This document shows, piece after piece, positions 17,456 through 27,301 of a DNA stretch of 56,769 nt (its first letter is position 1; every line of letters begins with the position of its first letter). The stretch is from Nitrospira sp. (lineage in GTDB: Bacteria > Nitrospirota > Nitrospiria > Nitrospirales > Nitrospiraceae): the NCBI GenBank assembly GCA_016873515.1, contig VGXB01000010.1, positions 1 through 56,769 on the forward strand. The letters run 5' to 3'. Made by a program: the position numbers and the translations under genes. The notes under the pieces were generated by a model. It had not been told where the DNA came from. It did not search any database and worked only from the letters and a program-made list of their open reading frames with translations.

Positions 17456-17483
17456 TTCTATACACACTACGGAGATGGATCCC

Positions 17484-18290
17484 ATGATCAAAGTCATTGT
17501 CGCAGGAGCCGCCGGACGCATGGGCTGCCAATTAGTGGCGCTGATCCATGACTCCACGGCGCTCGCCCTCTCCGGTGCGGTCGAGGGCAAGGGCCATCAC
17601 GCGCTTGGCGAAGACGCCGGCGAAACGGCCGCCTGCGGCCATTCCGGTGTCCCGATTACCGATGATCTCTCAGCCCTGCTCGATCGAGCCGAAGTGGTCA
17701 TCGATTTCTCCTCACCGACCGCAACCCTCGAACATCTGCGTGCCGTAGTGCACCACCGACGAGCCATGGTGATCGGGACGACGGGGTTCGAAGAGGTGCA
17801 ACTCGAGGAGCTCAAATCGCTGACCAAGCACATCCCCTGCGTCTTTTCTCCCAACATGAGCGTGGGCGTGAATCTCATCTATAAAGTTATCAGCGAGATG
17901 GCCAGGACGCTCGGGGACGAGTACGACATCGAAGTCATTGAGGCCCATCACCGACTTAAGAAAGATGCCCCCAGCGGCACGGCGCTCAAGATCGCCGAGA
18001 CCCTCGCACGTGCGGTCAATCGTGACTTGAATCAGGTCGGCGTGTATATGCGCAAAGGGTTGATTGGCGAGCGAAAGCAAAAAGAAATTGGGATTCAGAC
18101 CATTCGTGCCGGTGACATTGTCGGCGACCACACCATTTTATTCGGTGGCATGGGGGAACGGATCGAGGTGACGCATCGAGCCAGTAGTCGCGCCACCTTC
18201 GCCCGTGGTGCCCTCCGTGCAGCACGCTGGGTCGTCAGACAGCCTCCAGGCCTCTACGACATGATGGATGTGTTGGGACTGAAACAATAG
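17484..18290 (+). CDS. dapB: 4-hydroxy-tetrahydrodipicolinate reductase
   Basis: 268 residues. The start at 17484 is chosen because GGAG (17471-17474) is 9 bases upstream; an ATG at 17475 abuts the ribosome site. VIVAGAAGRMG is the NAD(P) Rossmann loop. EAHHRLKKDAPSGTALK is the family signature with the catalytic His and Lys. It reduces the DapA product in lysine and DAP synthesis. Its last codons (DMMDVLGLKQ) recur in diverged form at 20057-20086, so the 3' end may have been replaced by an insertion. It ends the cluster. Confidence 0.95.
   Translation: MIKVIVAGAAGRMGCQLVALIHDSTALALSGAVEGKGHHALGEDAGETAACGHSGVPITDDLSALLDRAEVVIDFSSPTATLEHLRAVVHHRRAMVIGTTGFEEVQLEELKSLTKHIPCVFSPNMSVGVNLIYKVISEMARTLGDEYDIEVIEAHHRLKKDAPSGTALKIAETLARAVNRDLNQVGVYMRKGLIGERKQKEIGIQTIRAGDIVGDHTILFGGMGERIEVTHRASSRATFARGALRAARWVVRQPPGLYDMMDVLGLKQ
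18258..18290 (+). repeat. dapB 3' end, left copy
   Basis: Last codons of dapB, encoding DMMDVLGLKQ-stop. They match 20057-20086 at nearly all first and second codon positions. The first 11 bases, GACATGATGGA, are identical, and most differences are at third positions. The copies are 1799 bases apart. Confidence 0.65.
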
Positions 18291-18507
18291 TTTACTTTTA
18301 CATTATATATCAATTACTTACTATTTACATATAAATGTGTGCGACGAATGTGTGTAAAAAGCGTAACTTCCCGAACCACTCACACACGTGTAGTAACTGC
18401 TACAGACCCAGCTCATCCTGCGAAGCAAATTCGTTCTAAAATCGTTCCGTAATGACTCCTAGGGACCCTCTTACTACTCGTGTCAGATGCGTCCTAGGCG
18501 GTCACAG
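18291..18507. other. AT-rich gap after dapB
   Basis: Much more AT-rich than the cluster before it, with no visible gene. It is probably the left flank of an acquired segment. Confidence 0.45.
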
Positions 18508-18533
18508 AAAGTTTACAAAAATAAACTTTTTTT
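18508..18533 (+). terminator. Intrinsic terminator candidate
   Basis: AAAGTTTA, loop CAAAAA, TAAACTTT, then a U-run, read on the plus strand. The stem is AT-only and weak but the hairpin plus U-run is textbook. It would end transcription reading in from dapB. Confidence 0.5.
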
Positions 18534-18545
18534 GTTCTTCCAAGT

Positions 18546-18767
18546 CTAACCTGCGAAAGACCCAGGAAACTCGCCTCGCGCCACCGCATTGACCACGATT
18601 TTCAAAGCATCCTTCGCTCTCCTCAAGTTCTGAATTGCCAACCGAGCATCGCTGTTGTTGATGTAATCCAACCGTTTTTCTTCTTCGGTTAGTGGAGTGA
18701 TCTTGCGGCGCGGTGTATAAGGCATTAGGACGCACCGTCTAGTTTCTGTATACTTGCCTCTGCTCAT
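18546..18767 (-). CDS. Small hypothetical protein, 73 residues
   Basis: Basic, soluble and mostly helical (EEEKRLDYINNSDARLAIQN), no known motif. It starts divergently from the Sel1 gene with 31 bases between starts; an internal ATG at 18725 is an alternative. No strong ribosome site. It lies in the putative insert after dapB and may belong with the Sel1 gene. Confidence 0.45.
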   Translation of the reverse strand: MSRGKYTETRRCVLMPYTPRRKITPLTEEEKRLDYINNSDARLAIQNLRRAKDALKIVVNAVARGEFPGSFAG

Positions 18768-18798
18768 TTTCTCGTAAACTCTTCTCGGAGGTTCAACT

Positions 18799-19935
18799 AT
18801 GAATCTTCGTTATCTCCTTCTCGTCAGTACTCTAGTCGCGGCGTGTGTCTTTCCGAGTCTCTCGTTGGCAGAAGAGTCTCAGGAAGTCAAAGAACTCAGA
18901 GCGCGATGCGACCAAGGCGATGCGGCAGGGTGTTTCAATCTGGGTCTGATGTACGACCTTGGCAAAGGTGTCACACAAGACTTTGTTGAGGCGGTCGCGT
19001 TGTATCATAAAGCGTGTGACAGGGGTGATGCGTCAGGGTGTGCCAGTCTGGGTTGGATGTATGAAAAAGGCACAGGCGTCATACAAGACTTTGTTCAAGC
19101 GGTCGCATTGTATCGTAATGCGTGTGACGGGGGAAATGCGATAGGGTGTTTCAATCTGGGTGTGATGTATAGAAATGGCACAGGCGTCACACAAGACTTT
19201 ACTCAGGCAGTAAAGTTCTATCGTAAAGCGTGTGACGGGGGATTTGCGGGAGGGTGTTTCAATCTGGGTGTGAAGTATTACGACGGCACAGGCGTCACAC
19301 AAGACTTTGTTGAGGCGGTTGCGTTGTATCGTAAAGCGTGTGATGGGGGTTATGCGGCAGGGTGTTTCAATCTGGGTCTGATGTACGACCTTGGCAAAGG
19401 CGTCACACAAGACTTTGTTGAGGCGGTTGCGTTGTATCGTAAAGCGTGTGACGGGAGTTATGCGACAGGGTGTTACAATCTGGGTTGGATGTATGAAAAA
19501 GGCACAGGCGTCACACAAGACTTTGTTCAAGCGGTCACATTGTATCGTAATGCGTGTGACGGGGGAAATGCGATAGGGTGTTTCAATCTGGGTGTGATGT
19601 ATAGAAATGGCACAGGCGTCACACAAGACTTTACTCAGGCAGTTAAGTTCTATCGTAAAGCATGTAATGGGGGAAGTGCGGGAGGGTGTAACAATCTGGG
19701 TCTGATGTATGACAAAGGCACAGGCGTCACACAAGACTTCTTTCAGGCAGTAAAGTTCTATCGTAAAGCGTGTGACGGGGGATTTGCAGGAGGGTGTTAC
19801 AATCTGGGTCTGATGTATTACTACGGCGCGGGCGTGAAACAAAGCAACGCCGACGCACTGAACTATTTCGGGAAAGCGTGCGATCTGAAAGACGAGGATG
19901 GGTGCGAGAACTACGCAAAAGTGAAGAAGAAGTGA
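18799..19935 (+). CDS. Secreted Sel1-repeat protein with nine near-identical repeats
   Basis: 378 residues, GGAGG 7 bases before the ATG. A signal peptide covers about residues 1-24 (ending SLSLA-EE). From residue 44 there are nine Sel1 repeats of exactly 36 residues, with consensus GCFNLGxMYxxGxGVTQDF. Each carries two conserved cysteines, one in GC and one in KAC or NAC, so a periplasmic disulfide ladder like HcpA/HcpB-type Sel1 proteins is likely. Repeats 1-3 match 5-7 most closely, so the array grew by duplicating a 4-repeat block. Sel1 proteins act as protein-binding scaffolds; the partner is unknown. The gene sits in an AT-richer segment bounded by dapB-end copies and is probably acquired. 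Confidence 0.9.
   Translation: MNLRYLLLVSTLVAACVFPSLSLAEESQEVKELRARCDQGDAAGCFNLGLMYDLGKGVTQDFVEAVALYHKACDRGDASGCASLGWMYEKGTGVIQDFVQAVALYRNACDGGNAIGCFNLGVMYRNGTGVTQDFTQAVKFYRKACDGGFAGGCFNLGVKYYDGTGVTQDFVEAVALYRKACDGGYAAGCFNLGLMYDLGKGVTQDFVEAVALYRKACDGSYATGCYNLGWMYEKGTGVTQDFVQAVTLYRNACDGGNAIGCFNLGVMYRNGTGVTQDFTQAVKFYRKACNGGSAGGCNNLGLMYDKGTGVTQDFFQAVKFYRKACDGGFAGGCYNLGLMYYYGAGVKQSNADALNYFGKACDLKDEDGCENYAKVKKK
18928..19899 (+). repeat. Tandem 108-bp repeats, nine units in a 432-bp super-repeat
   Basis: Nine 108-base units encode the Sel1 repeats. The sequence around 19131 recurs at 19563, exactly 432 bases later. Over about 100 bases there I see a single mismatch (GTAAAG versus GTTAAG). This points to recent block duplication and possible copy-number instability. 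Confidence 0.85.
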
Positions 19936-20056
19936 CTTACTGAGAACTAGGTTCTATTTGTGCCAATGGGTTTATCCATTTTTGACGGTATCTGTCAGTC
20001 ATACGAACCAAACGGAACTGACCCTAAGTGAATACGGGAGATTATATATGCGTTCC

Positions 20057-20086
20057 GACATGATGGACGTGTTGGGGCTAAAGTAA
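20057..20086 (+). repeat. Displaced second copy of the dapB 3' end
   Basis: Reads GAC ATG ATG GAC GTG TTG, then GGG CTA AAG TAA, encoding DMMDVLGLK-stop. Compared with the true dapB end it differs mainly at wobble positions and lacks the last Gln. It is probably the original chromosome end of dapB, displaced by the segment 18291-20056. A GC-rich hairpin follows at 20093-20113, which could be the old dapB terminator stem. Confidence 0.6.
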
Positions 20087-20284
20087 CCGTCTGTGGCCGC
20101 ACTTGCGGCGCACACGGCTTCCTCTCAGGTCTCTCGCCAATGCAGCTGACACCTCGTCATTAATTTGGACAAGGTCCGAATCCGATAACCGGACTGACTC
20201 AGCTAGTTCGAGCTAGCTGGTGCAGGATCGAGAGGCGGCGTTCCGTTTCTCACAGATCAGCAGCTGTGGGTGGCTATCCAGCAG
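20087..20284. other. Gap with a perfect 7-bp palindrome
   Basis: No gene seen. It contains CAGCTAG-TTCGAG-CTAGCTG at 20200-20219, a perfect 7-base stem with a 6-base loop, and a GTCCG/CGGAC inverted repeat near 20174-20194. The function is unknown. Confidence 0.4.
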
Positions 20285-20437
20285 TCAATGTCGGGCCGTG
20301 ATGGGACGAGGTTCTTGATCCGCTGCTTTCCGGCGACCGCAATTCAAACACGCGAATACTGCGATCGCAAGTCCAGCATCCAAATCAACTGCCCGTTCCA
20401 GCAACATCGTGCCATGGCATTTATCACATGTCTTCAT
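20285..20437 (-). CDS. 50-residue two-CxxC zinc-ribbon protein
   Basis: A short intact frame, start MKTCDKCHGTMLLERAV, later VFACLNCGRR, stop TGA. The CDKC and CLNC pairs, 23 residues apart, suggest a zinc knuckle, the same layout as the protein at 322-606. An AGGAGG lies about 40 bases upstream, so a longer original form with extra N-terminal residues is possible but not in an open frame with a normal start. The function is unknown. Confidence 0.6.
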   Translation of the reverse strand: MKTCDKCHGTMLLERAVDLDAGLAIAVFACLNCGRRKAADQEPRPITARH

Positions 20438-20589
20438 GGACCAGACTGTACCATTTTCTCTCAGTGCAGCATATCCTCCTGAAGTACTGGATGGAGAGAT
20501 GAAAGGGTTCCCGTATACACCTAGTTGCCCCTAGTCCTTTTGGGTATGTGGGTTTGCGCATTTTCATGAAGAGAACCAGCTGGTCTGGC
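20438..20589. other. Intergenic region
   Basis: Between two divergent small genes. No further gene is recognised. Confidence 0.3.
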
Positions 20590-20618
20590 TTGACAGGTCT
20601 CACCCCCTCCCATAGGAT
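20590..20618 (+). promoter_or_regulatory. Promoter of the YHS-like gene
   Basis: TTGACA (20590-20595), a 17-base spacer and TAGGAT (20613-20618). The unusual -10 TAGGAT is the same as in both CarH-like regulator promoters, but no operator-like motif is present here. Confidence 0.55.
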
Positions 20619-20644
20619 TGTAGCCAGATCCATGGTAAGCCACA

Positions 20645-20899
20645 ATGTATAGATTTTTGCTCATTTCCGCACTCCTCGTCATTCTATATTTCTTGCTACG
20701 GCAGGCGGTTCGAGGATTCAGAAACAATGCGGTGGGGGATCGGGGAACATCTCTGGATCAAGATCAGATGGTTGAAGACCCGGTGTGTCATACATTCGTC
20801 CCACGGCGAAACGCGGTGACTGAGACGGTCAGCGGCCAAACCTACTGTTTTTGCAGCAAGCGATGTGCGGACGCATTTAAGAACCGACAATCCAGTTAA
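20645..20899 (+). CDS. Membrane-anchored YHS/TRASH-like metal-site protein
   Basis: 84 residues. One N-terminal membrane helix (residues 3-19, FLLISALLVILYFLL) is followed by a short linker and a cysteine motif, MVEDPVCHTFVPRRNAV, then QTYCFCSKRCADAFK. That order, DPVC then YxFCSxxCxxxF, is typical of YHS/TRASH-type domains, which bind metals. PP0621-type proteins have the same anchor plus domain plan. A role in metal handling at the membrane is inferred. It overlaps the convergent lipoprotein gene by four bases. Confidence 0.75.
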   Translation: MYRFLLISALLVILYFLLRQAVRGFRNNAVGDRGTSLDQDQMVEDPVCHTFVPRRNAVTETVSGQTYCFCSKRCADAFKNRQSS

Positions 20900-21207
20900 C
20901 AGCCGAAATAACTCGAGTCGGACAGCTTATCTTCCTTGTCAAATTTCAGTGTGATCTGGCATTGGTACGGTGAGAAGTTGAACAGCAGTGGGCCGAACTT
21001 TCCTCCGCCAATACGGTAGTAAGTCCAGGTCTCGCCGCCAAAGAAGCGCATCGTTTTACCGTCAGGAGTGCCCCAGTTCTTTTCAAACCAAGCCTTGTCT
21101 TTTCCCTGAAGCTCTACCGGTTTGAGTGACGCGTCAAGATACGGGTTGCCGCCTCCGCAGGCGGTGAGCAGCACAGTCAGGAACAAGAGCCATGCAGATC
21201 GTCGCAT
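20896..21207 (-). CDS. Small lipoprotein
   Basis: 103 residues. The N-terminus MRRSAWLLFLTVLLTACGGG has a lipobox (LTAC). The mature part includes KAWFEKNWGTPDGK and a strand-rich end with a terminal Cys. The WGTPD followed by aromatic strands resembles SmpA/OmlA-style outer-membrane lipoproteins, but the match is weak. The function is unknown. Confidence 0.7.
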   Translation of the reverse strand: MRRSAWLLFLTVLLTACGGGNPYLDASLKPVELQGKDKAWFEKNWGTPDGKTMRFFGGETWTYYRIGGGKFGPLLFNFSPYQCQITLKFDKEDKLSDSSYFGC

Positions 21208-21385
21208 TGTACAATCTCCAGCTTGATGATCCCATGGAAGGCCGACGAAATTGTATTCCCCGCTCAGAAGCCCGCCAAACTACTGTGCAGACCTATGGCA
21301 AAAATATCAAGTTCTTCTTATAATGACCGATACCGAATTGGCCGCATGTGAAACCGCATCGGGCATGACATGAAAGGAGCCCACA

Positions 21386-22033
21386 ATGAAGTTTTTTCTT
21401 GATACAGCTAACGTGAAAGAGATTTATGAGGCTGCCAGTTTCGGCGTTTTGGACGGTGTGACCACAAATCCATCGCTGGTGGCCAAAGAAGGCCGCAGCT
21501 TCAAGGAAATGCTCCAGGAAATCTGCAAGATCGTGGACGGCCCGATTAGCGCCGAAGTCGTCAGCGTGGAAGCGGACGCCATGGTGAAGGAAGGCAGAGA
21601 ACTCGCCAATATCCACAAAAACATCGTGGTCAAATGTCCGCTGATTCCGGAAGGTATCAAGGCAACGAGCAAACTCGCGGCGGAAGGCATTCGCGTGAAT
21701 GTGACGCTCTGCTTTTCTCCAACACAGGCCCTTCTCGCCGCCAAAGCGGGCGCCTGGTGCATTTCGCCGTTCATCGGCCGATTGGACGATGTCAGCTCGG
21801 ACGGCATGGCGCTGATTCGTCAAATCGTCACCATCTACAAGAATTACGACTACAAGACATTAGTCCTTGTGGCCAGCGTCCGCCATCCGCAGCATGTCGT
21901 GGAATCAGCACTGGCAGGTGGCCACATCTGCACGATGCCCTACAACATATTCCAGTCACTCTTCAAGCACCCGCTGACCGATGTCGGATTGAAGAAGTTC
22001 CTCGACGACTGGAAAGCAAAAGGGCAGCAGTAA
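21386..22033 (+). CDS. tal: Transaldolase, fructose-6-phosphate-aldolase-type
   Basis: 215 residues, AAGGAG 7 bases before [19 protein letters not shown] starts a TIM barrel; [13 protein letters not shown] and [12 protein letters not shown] (catalytic lysine) are diagnostic of the short transaldolase subfamily. It transfers dihydroxyacetone units in the non-oxidative pentose phosphate pathway. Without an assay it cannot be told from an F6P aldolase. Confidence 0.92.
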
Positions 22034-22233
22034 GACTCGCGGAGGCAAGCCCGGGTAATCCCCTGTGCTCGCCGAGCGCGCACGCACGATTGAATTGAAC
22101 GTAGCCCGAAGTGGGCGCTGCTCACTCAGTGTACGCAGTTCAGGGATCACCCTGGCTCGCCTCCGCTCCAGAAAATCGAAAAGAGAACAGAGCACGGCTG
22201 CTTTATCGCGCATTCCGGATCAATTGCTTACCG
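22034..22233. other. Intergenic, short hairpin
   Basis: Contains a GCCC/GGGC hairpin near 22106-22118 without a U-run. No gene recognised. Confidence 0.3.
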
Positions 22234-22920
22234 CTATTCTCCGTCAATGATCGTCCGGGCTTTCCAGAACACCGAGTGGAACATCGGGCGAGTGAGAAAA
22301 CCGGTCTGCGTGTTGCGCTGGCTAGGATGGTAGGACCCGATCAGGGTAATGCCCCAGGGCAGGTGGTACATCTTACCATGGCCGAATTTCGGAACGGGCG
22401 CCGGGAGTATGTGGCCGAGATCTCGGCAAGCTTTCAGATAGTGATCGAAGGCGATCTTTCCCAACGTAATCACTACCTGCACATATTTGAACAGCTGAAG
22501 CTCACTCACTAAATAAGGCCGGCAGGCGGCAAATTCTCTCGGCAACGGCTTGTTATCCGGTGGAGCACAGCGCACGACCGACGCGATGTAGCAGTTGCTC
22601 AGACGCAAGCCGTCTTCCTTGTGCGTTGAGGTCGGCTGATTGGCAAAACCAAATACATGCAACGCTTCGTAGAGCCAGTCGCCGCTGCAATCACCCGTGA
22701 AAACACGCCCGGTTCGATTGCCGCCATGGGCAGCCGGCGCCAGTCCCACAATAAACACGCGCGCCTGCGAATCACCAAAACCAGGGACCGGTCTCCCCCA
22801 ATAGGTCCACTCTAGAAATTGGCGCCGCTTTGTCCTCGCGATCTTGTGCCGATAGATCACCAACCTAGCGCAGGCCTCACAATTTGTAATGGTCTCGTTC
22901 AGAATGGACAGGGTCTTCAT
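22234..22920 (-). CDS. Uracil-DNA glycosylase, family 5 (UDGb)
   Basis: About 228 residues from the ATG at 22920; a longer frame to 22953 lacks family similarity. Iron-sulfur ligands are visible: CEAC near the N-terminus and the Cys pair in RCAPPDNKPLPREFAACR. The catalytic loop GLAPAAHGGNRTGRVFTGD and the C-terminal GSYHPSQRNTQTG fit type 5 enzymes, which remove uracil and other deaminated bases. Its role is base-excision repair in the cytoplasm. Confidence 0.88.
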   Translation of the reverse strand: MKTLSILNETITNCEACARLVIYRHKIARTKRRQFLEWTYWGRPVPGFGDSQARVFIVGLAPAAHGGNRTGRVFTGDCSGDWLYEALHVFGFANQPTSTHKEDGLRLSNCYIASVVRCAPPDNKPLPREFAACRPYLVSELQLFKYVQVVITLGKIAFDHYLKACRDLGHILPAPVPKFGHGKMYHLPWGITLIGSYHPSQRNTQTGFLTRPMFHSVFWKARTIIDGE

Positions 22921-23035
22921 TGCGCGGCAGTGTAGCATGAACGGAAACATCATTCTGCTTGCCGGTCAGATGGCTCACTGTTAGCATGCCCGATCGTAAT
23001 CGTATCTGCTATGCTTATACTCAAGGAGTTACTGC

Positions 23036-24064
23036 ATGACCGCTAGGAACATGGGGATGGTGTTGTTCGCATTGACATTGGTGAGCTTTGCTCCCTCAGC
23101 TGTTGCATTTCCACAGCCCCATTCGGAACAAATGGAAAACGACAAAGATCTCATGCTTCCTGATCCGATGGACAGGCTGACAGAACCGGAAGATCGGTTG
23201 ATCATTCTGCCGGAAATCAAGCGAGAAGGTGAACGGTTCTTTTTAAGCTCGTTCAAACTGCCCAATAAGCTCACGTTTGCCGGCCTCACGGTGCCTCTCG
23301 ACAATTGGCAAGTCAGAGAACGTATCGAGTATGAGTTCTATCAATTCTTGGAAGATCAGGGTGAGAGCATCATCCTCGCCAAACGCACCGGCCGTTGTTT
23401 TCCACCAGCCGAGAAGCAACTGGCCGAGGCGGGCCTGCCGGACGATCTGAAATATATGCTACTGGTCGAAAGTAAGTGTATTTCGGCAGCCTACTCCAAA
23501 GCCAAAGCGTCCGGCCCCTGGCAGTTCATCCCGTCCACTGGCCGGCGCTACCAACTCAAAAGCGATGCTGTCCTGGACGAACGCCGCAATCTCGAAATGT
23601 CCACCGAAGCAGCAATCAAATACCTCAAGTACTTGAAAGACTTTCGGCAGAATGATTGGTTCCTGGCCATGGCTTCTTATAACGCCGGCGAAGAACGAGT
23701 CCGCAAGCTGATCAAAGACCAGAAGATTAATGACTACTGGAAAATGCACGGCCCTCGCGAGACCATGCGCTATGTCCCGAGGATCATTGCGGCGAAGGAA
23801 ATCTATTCCCAGCCAGAGAAATATCTGGGGCTAAGCAAGAAGGATCTCTACATCCCGCTGGAAACAGAAACCGTCACGGTTACGGTGAAGGAGTCACAAC
23901 GGGCGCTGACCTCCATCGCCGAGGAATTCGGCACCTACTTTCTCGAATTGAAAATGCTCAATCCCGAGTTTAAGAAAGATGTCCTGCCCCAAGGGACCTA
24001 CTACATCAGAATCCCACGTCAAACCTGTCAAAGCCGCTGTTTCAAACAAGACAAGATGCCATAA
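23036..24064 (+). CDS. Lytic transglycosylase with LysM, MltD-like
   Basis: 342 residues, AAGGAG 6 bases before ATG. A signal peptide occupies about 1-24 (SAVAF). The transglycosylase core runs about 120-270: DDLKYMLLVESKC contains the catalytic Glu, then SGPWQFIPSTGRRY and MASYNAGEERV. A short LysM-type region near the end (ALTSIAEEFGTYFLELKML) would bind peptidoglycan. The enzyme cleaves glycan strands in the periplasm. Confidence 0.87.
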   Translation: MTARNMGMVLFALTLVSFAPSAVAFPQPHSEQMENDKDLMLPDPMDRLTEPEDRLIILPEIKREGERFFLSSFKLPNKLTFAGLTVPLDNWQVRERIEYEFYQFLEDQGESIILAKRTGRCFPPAEKQLAEAGLPDDLKYMLLVESKCISAAYSKAKASGPWQFIPSTGRRYQLKSDAVLDERRNLEMSTEAAIKYLKYLKDFRQNDWFLAMASYNAGEERVRKLIKDQKINDYWKMHGPRETMRYVPRIIAAKEIYSQPEKYLGLSKKDLYIPLETETVTVTVKESQRALTSIAEEFGTYFLELKMLNPEFKKDVLPQGTYYIRIPRQTCQSRCFKQDKMP

Positions 24065-24076
24065 CTTCTTTCGTTC

Positions 24077-25414
24077 ATGCCGCCTCGCATCCCCAGATCC
24101 CCTGCTCAATCATTGCTTCGGAAGTTGATTGTCACGGGGTTAGCAGCAGCCGACCCCTACCACGCCCTACTGAAATCCATGTCGTGCGATGGGCACCTGC
24201 TGCAAGTGGGCCGCCGAACCTATAACCTTGATCACATCGACCGAATCGTCGCAGTGGGCGCCGGCAAAGCGTCCGCTCGGATGGCCCAGGCGATCGAACA
24301 CATCTTGGAGACCAAATTGGAACAGGGACTCGTTGTGGTTCGGCCCGGTCACAGGGTCCAGACAAGACAGATTGCCGTCGTCGAGGCCAGCCACCCGATT
24401 CCAGATCGTGCGGGACGGCACGCCGCTCAACGTATCCAGATCTTGGCTCACGATCTCACGCCTCGCGACCTCCTCATTGTCCTGTTGTCGGGAGGGGCAT
24501 CAAGCCTCTTGCCCGCTCCGGCTCCGGGCATCACTCTGGCGACCAAACAACGGACTACGCGTCTACTGTTGAGAAGCGGTGCAAGGATCGAGGAAATAAA
24601 TACCGTTCGCAAACATCTGTCCCAGCTGAAAGGCGGAGGACTCGCGCTTTCCACACAGGCCACTATTGTGACCCTCATTCTTTCCGATGTCATCGGAGAC
24701 GACATCGGCACGATCGGATCGGGCCCGACTGCTCCAGATCCCACCACCTTCGCTGATGCCATCTCTGTGCTGCGCCGATACAAGATATGGCTTACTGTGC
24801 CTCTCGCTGTGCGCCGTCATCTGCTCCAAGGGAACAGAGGGGCCGTTCCTGAGACACTGAAACCAGGCTCACAGCGGCTGCGCTCAGTGCACCATGTGAT
24901 CATCGGCAATAATCGCGAGATGCTCGACGCGGTTGCCCAGGCTGCAGAACGGGCAGGGCTCTATCCCCACTGCCTTTCAGATCCCATCGTGGGAGAAGCC
25001 CGAGTGGAGGCAAAGCGATTTGTCGGACAGGCGTTACGCCTCCTAGAGCAACACGGAAAACTGAGACGCCCTTCATGTATCATTGCCGGAGGTGAACCGA
25101 CCGTGACAGTCACAGGACACGGCAAAGGAGGACGCGCACAGGAATTTGCAGCCGCAGCAGCCCTCCACCTTACCGGGGTCTCTCATGTCTGGCTCGCGGC
25201 GCTGGGAACGGATGGGACCGACGGGCCAACCGATGTCGCTGGTGCGGTGATCAGCGGAGCAACCGCTGCACAAGCTGAAAAAATAGGCGTCGACCTCCGC
25301 TCCGCATTGAAGCGGCATGACACCTACCAGGCCTTTCAGGCCTTGCGGTGCCATATCCGCACCGGCTTAACCGGAACCAACGTCAATGATCTTTACCTCC
25401 TCCTTCTGCTGTAG
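24077..25414 (+). CDS. Glycerate 2-kinase, MOFRL family
   Basis: 445 residues. VAVGAGKASARMAQA, HPIPDRAGRHAAQRI and LLSGGASSLLPAP define the DUF4147 N-terminal domain. The C-terminal MOFRL region has GGEPTVTVTGHGKGGRAQE and ALGTDGTDGPTDVAG. It phosphorylates glycerate to 2-phosphoglycerate, feeding lower glycolysis. The decayed PEP-synthase-like gene starts 10 bases later, so the two may once have formed a carbon-salvage pair. Confidence 0.9.
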   Translation: MPPRIPRSPAQSLLRKLIVTGLAAADPYHALLKSMSCDGHLLQVGRRTYNLDHIDRIVAVGAGKASARMAQAIEHILETKLEQGLVVVRPGHRVQTRQIAVVEASHPIPDRAGRHAAQRIQILAHDLTPRDLLIVLLSGGASSLLPAPAPGITLATKQRTTRLLLRSGARIEEINTVRKHLSQLKGGGLALSTQATIVTLILSDVIGDDIGTIGSGPTAPDPTTFADAISVLRRYKIWLTVPLAVRRHLLQGNRGAVPETLKPGSQRLRSVHHVIIGNNREMLDAVAQAAERAGLYPHCLSDPIVGEARVEAKRFVGQALRLLEQHGKLRRPSCIIAGGEPTVTVTGHGKGGRAQEFAAAAALHLTGVSHVWLAALGTDGTDGPTDVAGAVISGATAAQAEKIGVDLRSALKRHDTYQAFQALRCHIRTGLTGTNVNDLYLLLLL

Positions 25415-25423
25415 ATACTATCC

Positions 25424-27301
25424 GTGCCGATGGCGGATTTCAGCGTCCTTCCCTTGGTACGATGCAACAAGCTCAAACTGGTCGGAAGCAAAGCCCTTGG
25501 TTTGGCTCGACTCATGGCGGCTGGATTTCCTGTGCCTCCCGGCATCTGCGTGACGACTGAAGCCTACCGGCAAAGCTTGCTTGCATTGGGATTTACTCCA
25601 GCAGGCGCGCCCTATCATCGGGGTTTCCCCCTCCTCCCAGCTGACTGACGACGATTGCGAGTGGTCGCGCGCGAACTTTAAAGAAACGATGCCGGAATTG
25701 CCGAGTCCTGTGGGGAATTCCTTTCTTGAACTGTTCATGAACCAGTACATCATCGAACCCTATCGGCGGCTCGGCTGCCACATTCCCAATGACCTGACGT
25801 CAACACGCATCTTCCATGGACGTCCCTACCTGAACGTCACCTTGTTCCATATGCTCGTCACGCAACTACGTGGCGACCCAGCCCAGCTGCCGAAACAGAT
25901 GGACGGAGAACCGATCGCAGCTGCTCCGGTGGTGCATCCACTCGGCTGGCTCGCCTTCATCCGCACAGGAATCGTGCTGTCGAAGGAAATGCGACGCGCG
26001 GCCGCCCATGGCCCGGTGTGGTTCGCCGAGATGAAAACCATGGCCAAACACTTCGGATCGGAACAGATCGAAGTGCTGTCATTTGACGAGACGGTCAGGA
26101 AGCTCGATGAACTTGAGCGCACGGTTTCACCGGCACGAGCTCACGTTTGACATCGTGGACGGAGTGGCCCAATGCCTGCAAGCACTGGGCTTTCTGTTAT
26201 CACGCTGGCTGGGATCGGACTGGAGAGTCCTCTCAAACGAGGCCCTGCCTGGCTAAGGCACAGTCATTAGCGCGCAACAGATCCTGCGCCTCGCGGAAAT
26301 CATGGACATCGCACGGCGTGAACCGGCGGCAGAGGTGTTCTTCAACGCGGAGCCCTGGCTCCCCCCACACTTCCGCACGGCGCTGAAAGAAACGGCGTGC
26401 TTGCGCGCCTTCGACGCCTACATGGAAGACTATGGTCATCGCGGCATTGGTGAATCCGATGTCATGTCGTCACGCCTGGCCGACAAGCCTCAAGCGATTT
26501 TATCTGTACTGCGACTCCAGCTTGGAGCCACACCATTCGGCCGGAAAGAGGTGCTGTCGCGCCAGGAGCGCACCAGCGTGGAAGTGCTGGCAGAAATCAA
26601 ACGGCGTCTGGCCCGGCGGCTAGACCGATGGTTCATGTACCGCTGGTGGTATCGACGGTTATGCCGGTTTTTCGCCCTGCGGGAAGTCAACCGGCACCAT
26701 CTGATGTACTTTTCGACTGCAACGCACACCCTGCTGCTGCACCTCGGCGATCTGCTGGTCACACAAGGGAAGTGTGAAGCACGCGACGATATCTTCTTTC
26801 TCACCGTACAAGATCGAACCGATCTGGTATCCCAAAAGAACCGGAATTGGCGAGAAATCATTCGTGAACGCCGAGCTGAGCGAAACCGCAATGCCGCCAT
26901 CGAAATCCCCGACACCATCCGCGATTGGGAAACTGCCACGACCAGCAGCGTTTTCAATCGCTCCCATGGAACCGGACCATTGGTCGGCCTTCCCATCAGC
27001 GCTGGATCCGCAACTGGGCCGGTGCGGCTGCTCCGTTCTTTGACCGATTGGAGCAACGTGAAGTCGGGAGACATTCTCGTGGCTCCCGTGATCGACCCTG
27101 GCATGGCACCGCTCTTCGACATCGCCGGCGGTTTGTATCGTGGAAATGGGCGGCACACTGTCTCATGGCACGATCATCGCCTGCGAATACGGCCTTCCGA
27201 CCGTGGTCAATATCGAAGCCGTGATGACGCGCTTGGAAGAGGGACCGCGGGTGCGCCTGAATGCGGCTGCCGGCACCATTCATGTGGATCCCGGCCCCTG
27301 A
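25424..27301 (+). pseudogene. Decayed PEP synthase / PEP-utilising enzyme
   Basis: The N-terminus (VGSKALGLARLMAAGFPVPPG) is an ATP-grasp PEP/pyruvate-binding domain. It joins near 25600, through an apparent large internal deletion and frame change, directly to the end of that domain (QARPI). Further lesions are a frameshift near 26130, an in-frame TAA at 26254-26256, and a one-base frameshift near 27137. The C-terminal phosphohistidine motif GGTLSHGTIIACEYGLP is still readable in another frame up to TGA at 27301. Intact relatives interconvert pyruvate and PEP or phosphorylate other acceptors. At least four lesions mean no functional product is expected. Confidence 0.8.

Follow-up and report, generated by a model that had tools for sequence, protein, structure and literature searches.

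Islander-type tDNA islands insert themselves at a gene's 3′ end, and the targeted gene is restored in the process (PMC4383910). In Dehalococcoides, the ssrA islands target tmRNA by means of a serine recombinase, and some of them are without an integration module of their own (PMC3146451). A cis-mobilizable element (CIME) is one in which attL and attR are kept and the genes for integration and transfer are absent, and which is mobilised in cis once a related ICE or IME has accreted to it (PMC5704250). One review counts tycheposons as marine phage satellites (PMC11389934). Here we analyse a locus at the 3′ end of dapB in a Nitrospira sp. genome of 1.98 Mb (G000), whose closest named relatives are Nitrospira MAGs. 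The window, that is the whole stretch of DNA that was analysed, is a contig of this genome of 56,769 nucleotides. We conclude, with a probability of roughly 0.86, that positions 18269-20067 are the CIME-like relic of an integrative element, which came in when its attP recombined site-specifically with an attB within the last dapB codons, and that its integrase has since been lost.

The target gene, dapB (4-hydroxy-tetrahydrodipicolinate reductase), is an open frame at 17475-18290 on the forward strand. The gene turned up at 80 loci among the genome contigs and in 58 of 59 related genomes. Homology to DapB begins at residue 4, and the start codon may therefore be the ATG at 17484. The end of dapB recurs 1799 bases downstream, as the initial annotation had noted, in a direct repeat of 18257-18283 and 20056-20082 in which 24 of 27 bases match. 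When a 34-nt probe from the dapB end was compared with the next 8 kb, the best ungapped match reached 27 bases, whereas 60 mononucleotide shuffles of that stretch gave 20 at most. The in-place codons read DMMDVLGLKQ and stop, the displaced codons DMMDVLGLK and stop; the extra Q codon is present in the in-place end only, and the ten recurring codons first described are in the displaced copy nine codons and a stop. Ahead of the stop every difference between the two ends is synonymous (GAT/GAC, GGA/GGG, CTG/CTA, AAA/AAG), where the initial annotation had claimed mostly synonymous changes, and the displaced copy, which lacks a start and is not a gene, does end in its own stop. Both copies contain the identical 12-bp core CGACATGATGGA, at 18257-18268 in the putative attL and at 20056-20067 in the putative attR (both on the forward strand), and the first mismatch between them is the base right after this core. 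On this pattern, the crossover must fall within the 12 bp common to both copies. Behind the two cores lie, on the forward strand, the in-place end (18269-18290; codons V-L-G-L-K-Q-stop) and the displaced end with its stop (20068-20086).

An empty site, it had been predicted, should show the dapB end joined directly to the right flank. This is what we find in two close relatives (L032 and L033), in which the end of dapB is directly followed by a homologue of window positions 20056-25579. Joining the flanks of the window at CGACATGATGGA restores a 270-residue DapB ending DMMDVLGLK and gives a single unbroken 1.8-kb alignment with both relatives, compared with only 624-626 bp for the unjoined window. 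Identity with these relatives runs up to the 12-bp core and restarts right behind it. The grouping of the dapB ends was compared across six sequences. In the 22 bases after the 12-bp block, the displaced end matches L032 and L033 at 17, the displaced copy of the sister genome G071 at 20 and the in-place end at 15. For the in-place end, the match is 18/22 with the in-place end of G071, and 11/22 and 13/22 with the native ends of L032 and L033. Because of these shared bases we read the displaced copy (20068 onwards) as the inherited native end and the in-place end as the replacement that arrived with the element. A strong hairpin is predicted behind the displaced stop (20089-20118, forward strand; region z-score -2.5) and is probably the original dapB terminator, from which 1.8 kb now separate the end of the gene in use; no Rfam family was found in the region.

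The empty sites and the grouping of the ends together support the proposal that DNA integrated at the dapB 3′ end, supplied a replacement end and displaced the original. The initial annotation had left open two versions of events, a minimal or decayed integrative element and a homologous replacement. In the latter, ordinary recombination would have swapped the 3′ portion of dapB, with the second end as a by-product. The homology that strains show in dapB and its ends speaks for such an exchange, but it would leave behind no displaced native end with its native flank. Moreover, it explains neither a junction that lies within one 12-bp block, with empty-site identity flush on both sides, nor the rigid left end common to three lineages that is described below. 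We reject homologous replacement as extremely unlikely, and the empty sites and the anatomy of the att sites favour the integrative element.

The left arm of this element (18304-18355, forward strand) was recognised in an ungapped alignment of four dapB loci. It comprises a TTATATTTCAATGACTTA-like block (TATATCAATTACTTA, 18306-18320), a 16-base spacer and two tandem GTGTG-type repeats on the forward strand (GTGTGCGA at 18337-18344 and ATGTGTGT at about 18348-18355), the latter resembling the arm-type sites of integrases; the general form of the arm motif is TTATATTTCAAYGACTTA-N16-GTGTGCRA. The window, its counterpart in G071 (L031), Nitrospira sp. 337R (L060) and Baikal-G1 (L066) have this left end in common, ungapped over about 90 bases and with fixed spacing, in the order replacement dapB codons, TTATATTTCAATGACTTA, 16-base spacer and GTGTGCGA.GA.TGTG repeat pair. 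The L060 contig stops inside the left arm. The left end was absent after dapB from the other 77 loci, all of which had more than two mismatches to TTCAATGACTTA throughout the 110 bases that were screened. On the dapB tree the window and L031 are sisters (100/94), with L032 and L033 as their sister pair, and well-supported branches force three separate changes to account for the four carriers. In L066 the native flank restarts only about 277 bases past the stop, compared with within about 20 in its relative L075. Because the four carriers need three changes on the tree, and because of the difference between L066 and L075, the site has seen repeated use, or the element repeated loss; in formal terms one gain early on, followed by many losses, would also serve, at the cost of far more events. 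The same attB occurs with the same att architecture in independent insertions (four loci, three changes), and the dapB 3′ end appears to be a repeatedly used attachment site in Nitrospira.

This recurrence also bears on a local duplication of the dapB 3′ end, after which a Sel1 gene would have been inserted between the two copies. Whilst the dispersal of Sel1 genes of the same family in the genome is in keeping with such an insertion, the in-place end differs in a direction that is common to three lineages with the same arms, which a duplication would not give, and we find this account barely credible.

Two further observations concern dapB loci elsewhere. The Nitrospirae Baikal-G1 locus (L066:8810-9087) has an insertion leftover of ~260 bp after dapB, with the same left arm, that is absent in L075. 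In Nitrospira CG24E (L052:8760-8840) the dapB frame is joined to unrelated DNA right after DMMDVL and the usual downstream genes are absent from the next 8 kb; this could be a rearrangement, a large insertion or an assembly join.

In G071 the element is split over two contigs, with the in-place end, left arm and Sel1 gene on C47, and the displaced end and native flank on C55. Because identity between the window and G071 is about 75% in the Sel1 part compared with about 88-90% in the flanks, the interior has changed faster than the flanks or was exchanged in part. The right ends differ as well, the displaced end of G071 directly following a truncated Sel1 repeat. Since the Sel1 repeats of the element's family contain GCGACA, a deletion through the microhomology CGACA would be the simplest, albeit unproved, account of this right end. 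A true second dapB end was found only in G000 and G071 amongst 79 Nitrospira genomes and 395 genomes of the phylum. The initial annotation had regarded relatives with both copies around a vertically conserved interior, or a lack of empty sites, as counting against integration; G071 is the only relative with both dapB ends, its interior is diverged and rearranged, and empty sites exist. Second dapB fragments in G015 and G027 proved to be exact 141-bp assembly overlaps at contig ends and not further copies, and the second pattern matches in G003, G013 and G020 trace to a TPR-like gene that is unrelated. The G027 (C107/C197) and G015 (C47/C232) assemblies break just past dapB, as if there were two alternative continuations in the population.

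The segment between the repeats is AT-richer than the window, as had been described, with a GC content of 47.5% compared with 55.4% (its left non-coding part has 43.9% and its right tail 41.3%). It also carries the Sel1 array and small gene that had been reported, as ORFs of 378 and 73 aa, and no integrase: the ORF list and Pfam gave no recombinase, integration or transfer gene in 18291-20055, and no phage-satellite gene was found in the segment. The cargo gene at 18799-19935 (forward strand) encodes a Sel1-repeat protein of 378 aa in an array with a 108-bp repeat unit (Pfam Sel1 E=3e-87); by inspection it has an apparent signal peptide, and the protein is probably secreted. Paralogues of this gene lie on contigs C1, C56, C22 and C6 of G000, dispersed and in tandem (C1:2017-3823, C22:270-1160, C6:25575-26165 and C56:9606-10214). 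Upstream of several of them, a conserved stretch codes for a resolvase-like helix-turn-helix tail (IREIASQLRIGCGTVYRALG). A serine resolvase gene accompanying the Sel1 genes is unsupported, the tail being only 30 aa with an HTH_7 match at E=0.15. Behind the cargo gene, the right end of the element (19936-20055) is AT-rich, non-coding and absent from the empty-site relatives.

The 73-aa ORF lies on the reverse strand at 18546-18767, is likely translated from the M at about 18722 and belongs to no known family, with no matches in Pfam, PHROG, phages or plasmids. It has a paralogue on contig C1 of G000 (L121:1764-2018, reverse strand), the proteins ranging in size from 73 to 84 aa. Between the two, 16 codon differences are synonymous and 6 nonsynonymous (2/5/17 by codon position). 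Because these differences are mostly at third positions, the ORF has been retained as a protein, under purifying selection between two loci of G000. Nearer to the left arm is a candidate C-terminal remnant (ESLRNDFRT...) of a longer gene reading towards attL (18426-18464, reverse strand; profile match E=0.009). The peptide had no plasmid matches, and it is the stump of a longer coding-like stretch at G000:C1, G071:C47 and G071:C6. It is perhaps the C-terminus of the lost integrase, although nothing proves that identity.

Left-module copies were found at other sites, namely G000:C1:1510-1800 (L121), G000:C31:24041-24106 (L221) and G071:C6:70580-70669 (L164), and these show that the DNA of the element has also moved within the genome. 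The C1 and C6 copies have arm-like repeats in common, unlike those at dapB. That all such copies mark gene 3′ ends fails at G071:C6, where the copy splits a lipoprotein gene whose counterparts in G005 and G111 are intact; because of this interruption, no one targeting rule holds for every copy. The presence of the left module at other sites of the same and the sister genome also speaks for a live non-autonomous element, whose attL and attR would be functional and which would be excised or moved by an integrase supplied in trans from another element. The arms and core are intact in the window and the small ORF is under purifying selection by comparison with its paralogue, both in line with such an element. 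However, the core copies diverge from the first base past the 12-bp block, the 1.8-kb form is confined to a close pair (the window and G071) and L066 shows a decaying site. Moreover, the surroundings of the tyrosine recombinases in G000 and G071 yielded no integrase recognisable as a match, and there is no third dapB-like core in either genome. We consider a live element unlikely and, because the integrase is absent, class the segment as a relic rather than an active element. It is quite doubtful, too, that freshwater Nitrospira harbour a family of non-autonomous integrative cassettes made up of left module, small ORF and Sel1 gene, with att sites kept and integrases encoded elsewhere. If that were true, Sel1-repeat genes would spread as cargo to dapB and several other sites with no recombinase of their own.

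A recombinase gene was found in none of the elements at the dapB site. Tyrosine recombinases are present in G000, G071 and G005; the stretches examined showed none that was recognisably accompanied by this core or these arms. Scans of viral contigs for the core and arm motifs gave no integrase-carrying relative: the strict dapB-end pattern had 0 matches and a looser one 4 candidate matches, the strict arm motif had 0, and relatives of neither dapB nor the Sel1 protein were found in the viral contigs. The single match of the loose arm motif in a viral contig falls inside a large viral coding gene and was discarded.

Because a short identical core lies at a gene 3′ end, the gene is restored and arm-like repeats stand at a fixed distance, the enzyme responsible would, from the anatomy of the site only, have been a tyrosine-type integrase. 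Tandem arm-type repeats with fixed spacing are typical of tyrosine integrases. The class of enzyme is not to be taken for granted, because the Dehalococcoides ssrA islands use a serine recombinase, which shows that such an enzyme can make islands at gene 3′ ends (PMC3146451). The short resolvase-like tail upstream of several Sel1 genes, a very weak Pfam match (E=0.15), also points towards integration by a serine recombinase or some other enzyme, yet no serine recombinase domain was found in G000 and the tandem arm-like repeats at fixed spacing argue against it, making it very unlikely.

We therefore return to the relic of a tyrosine-type system and propose the following course. The attP of the element would have recombined site-specifically with the attB formed by the last dapB codons, the crossover falling inside CGACATGATGGA, such that the end of the element replaced that of dapB and the native end was moved 1.8 kb away. 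The integrase and most of the element would have been deleted later, leaving attL, attR, the conserved small ORF and the probably secreted Sel1 gene, a member of a family dispersed in the genome. Because dapB still reads through into a complete end, synthesis of lysine and cell-wall precursors should be unharmed.

The kind of element is already known and the mechanism ordinary, whereas the landing site in dapB is apparently unreported, a limited literature search confined to open-access papers having turned up nothing that describes integration at dapB. With its defined core and arms, the dapB 3′ end gives a starting point for tracking down the missing integrase and for inserting DNA site-specifically in nitrifiers, where genetic tools are few. 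Moreover, this locus illustrates that integration relics can be confirmed by empty sites even without an integrase.

As in Islander-type islands, the target is regenerated on one side and a fragment displaced on the other, empty sites are exact and one site is reused; unlike there, a protein gene (dapB) is targeted, a remnant of 1.8 kb is left and there is no integrase gene. The low-GC segment between a gene 3′ end and its direct repeat is reminiscent of the ssrA islands, although here the target is dapB instead of tmRNA and the enzyme is gone, where those islands use a serine recombinase. Tycheposons target tRNA. The locus resembles them and other phage-satellite islands in being a small island at a fixed site with hitchhiking cargo, and differs in having no phage-satellite gene. 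Unlike a CIME, it has no tandem ICE or IME partner at the site in the window, and what we describe is for now just a relic of that build. Like a CIME, with integration and transfer genes absent from 18291-20055, the segment keeps both attL and attR, with the 12-bp core on both sides and the left arm.
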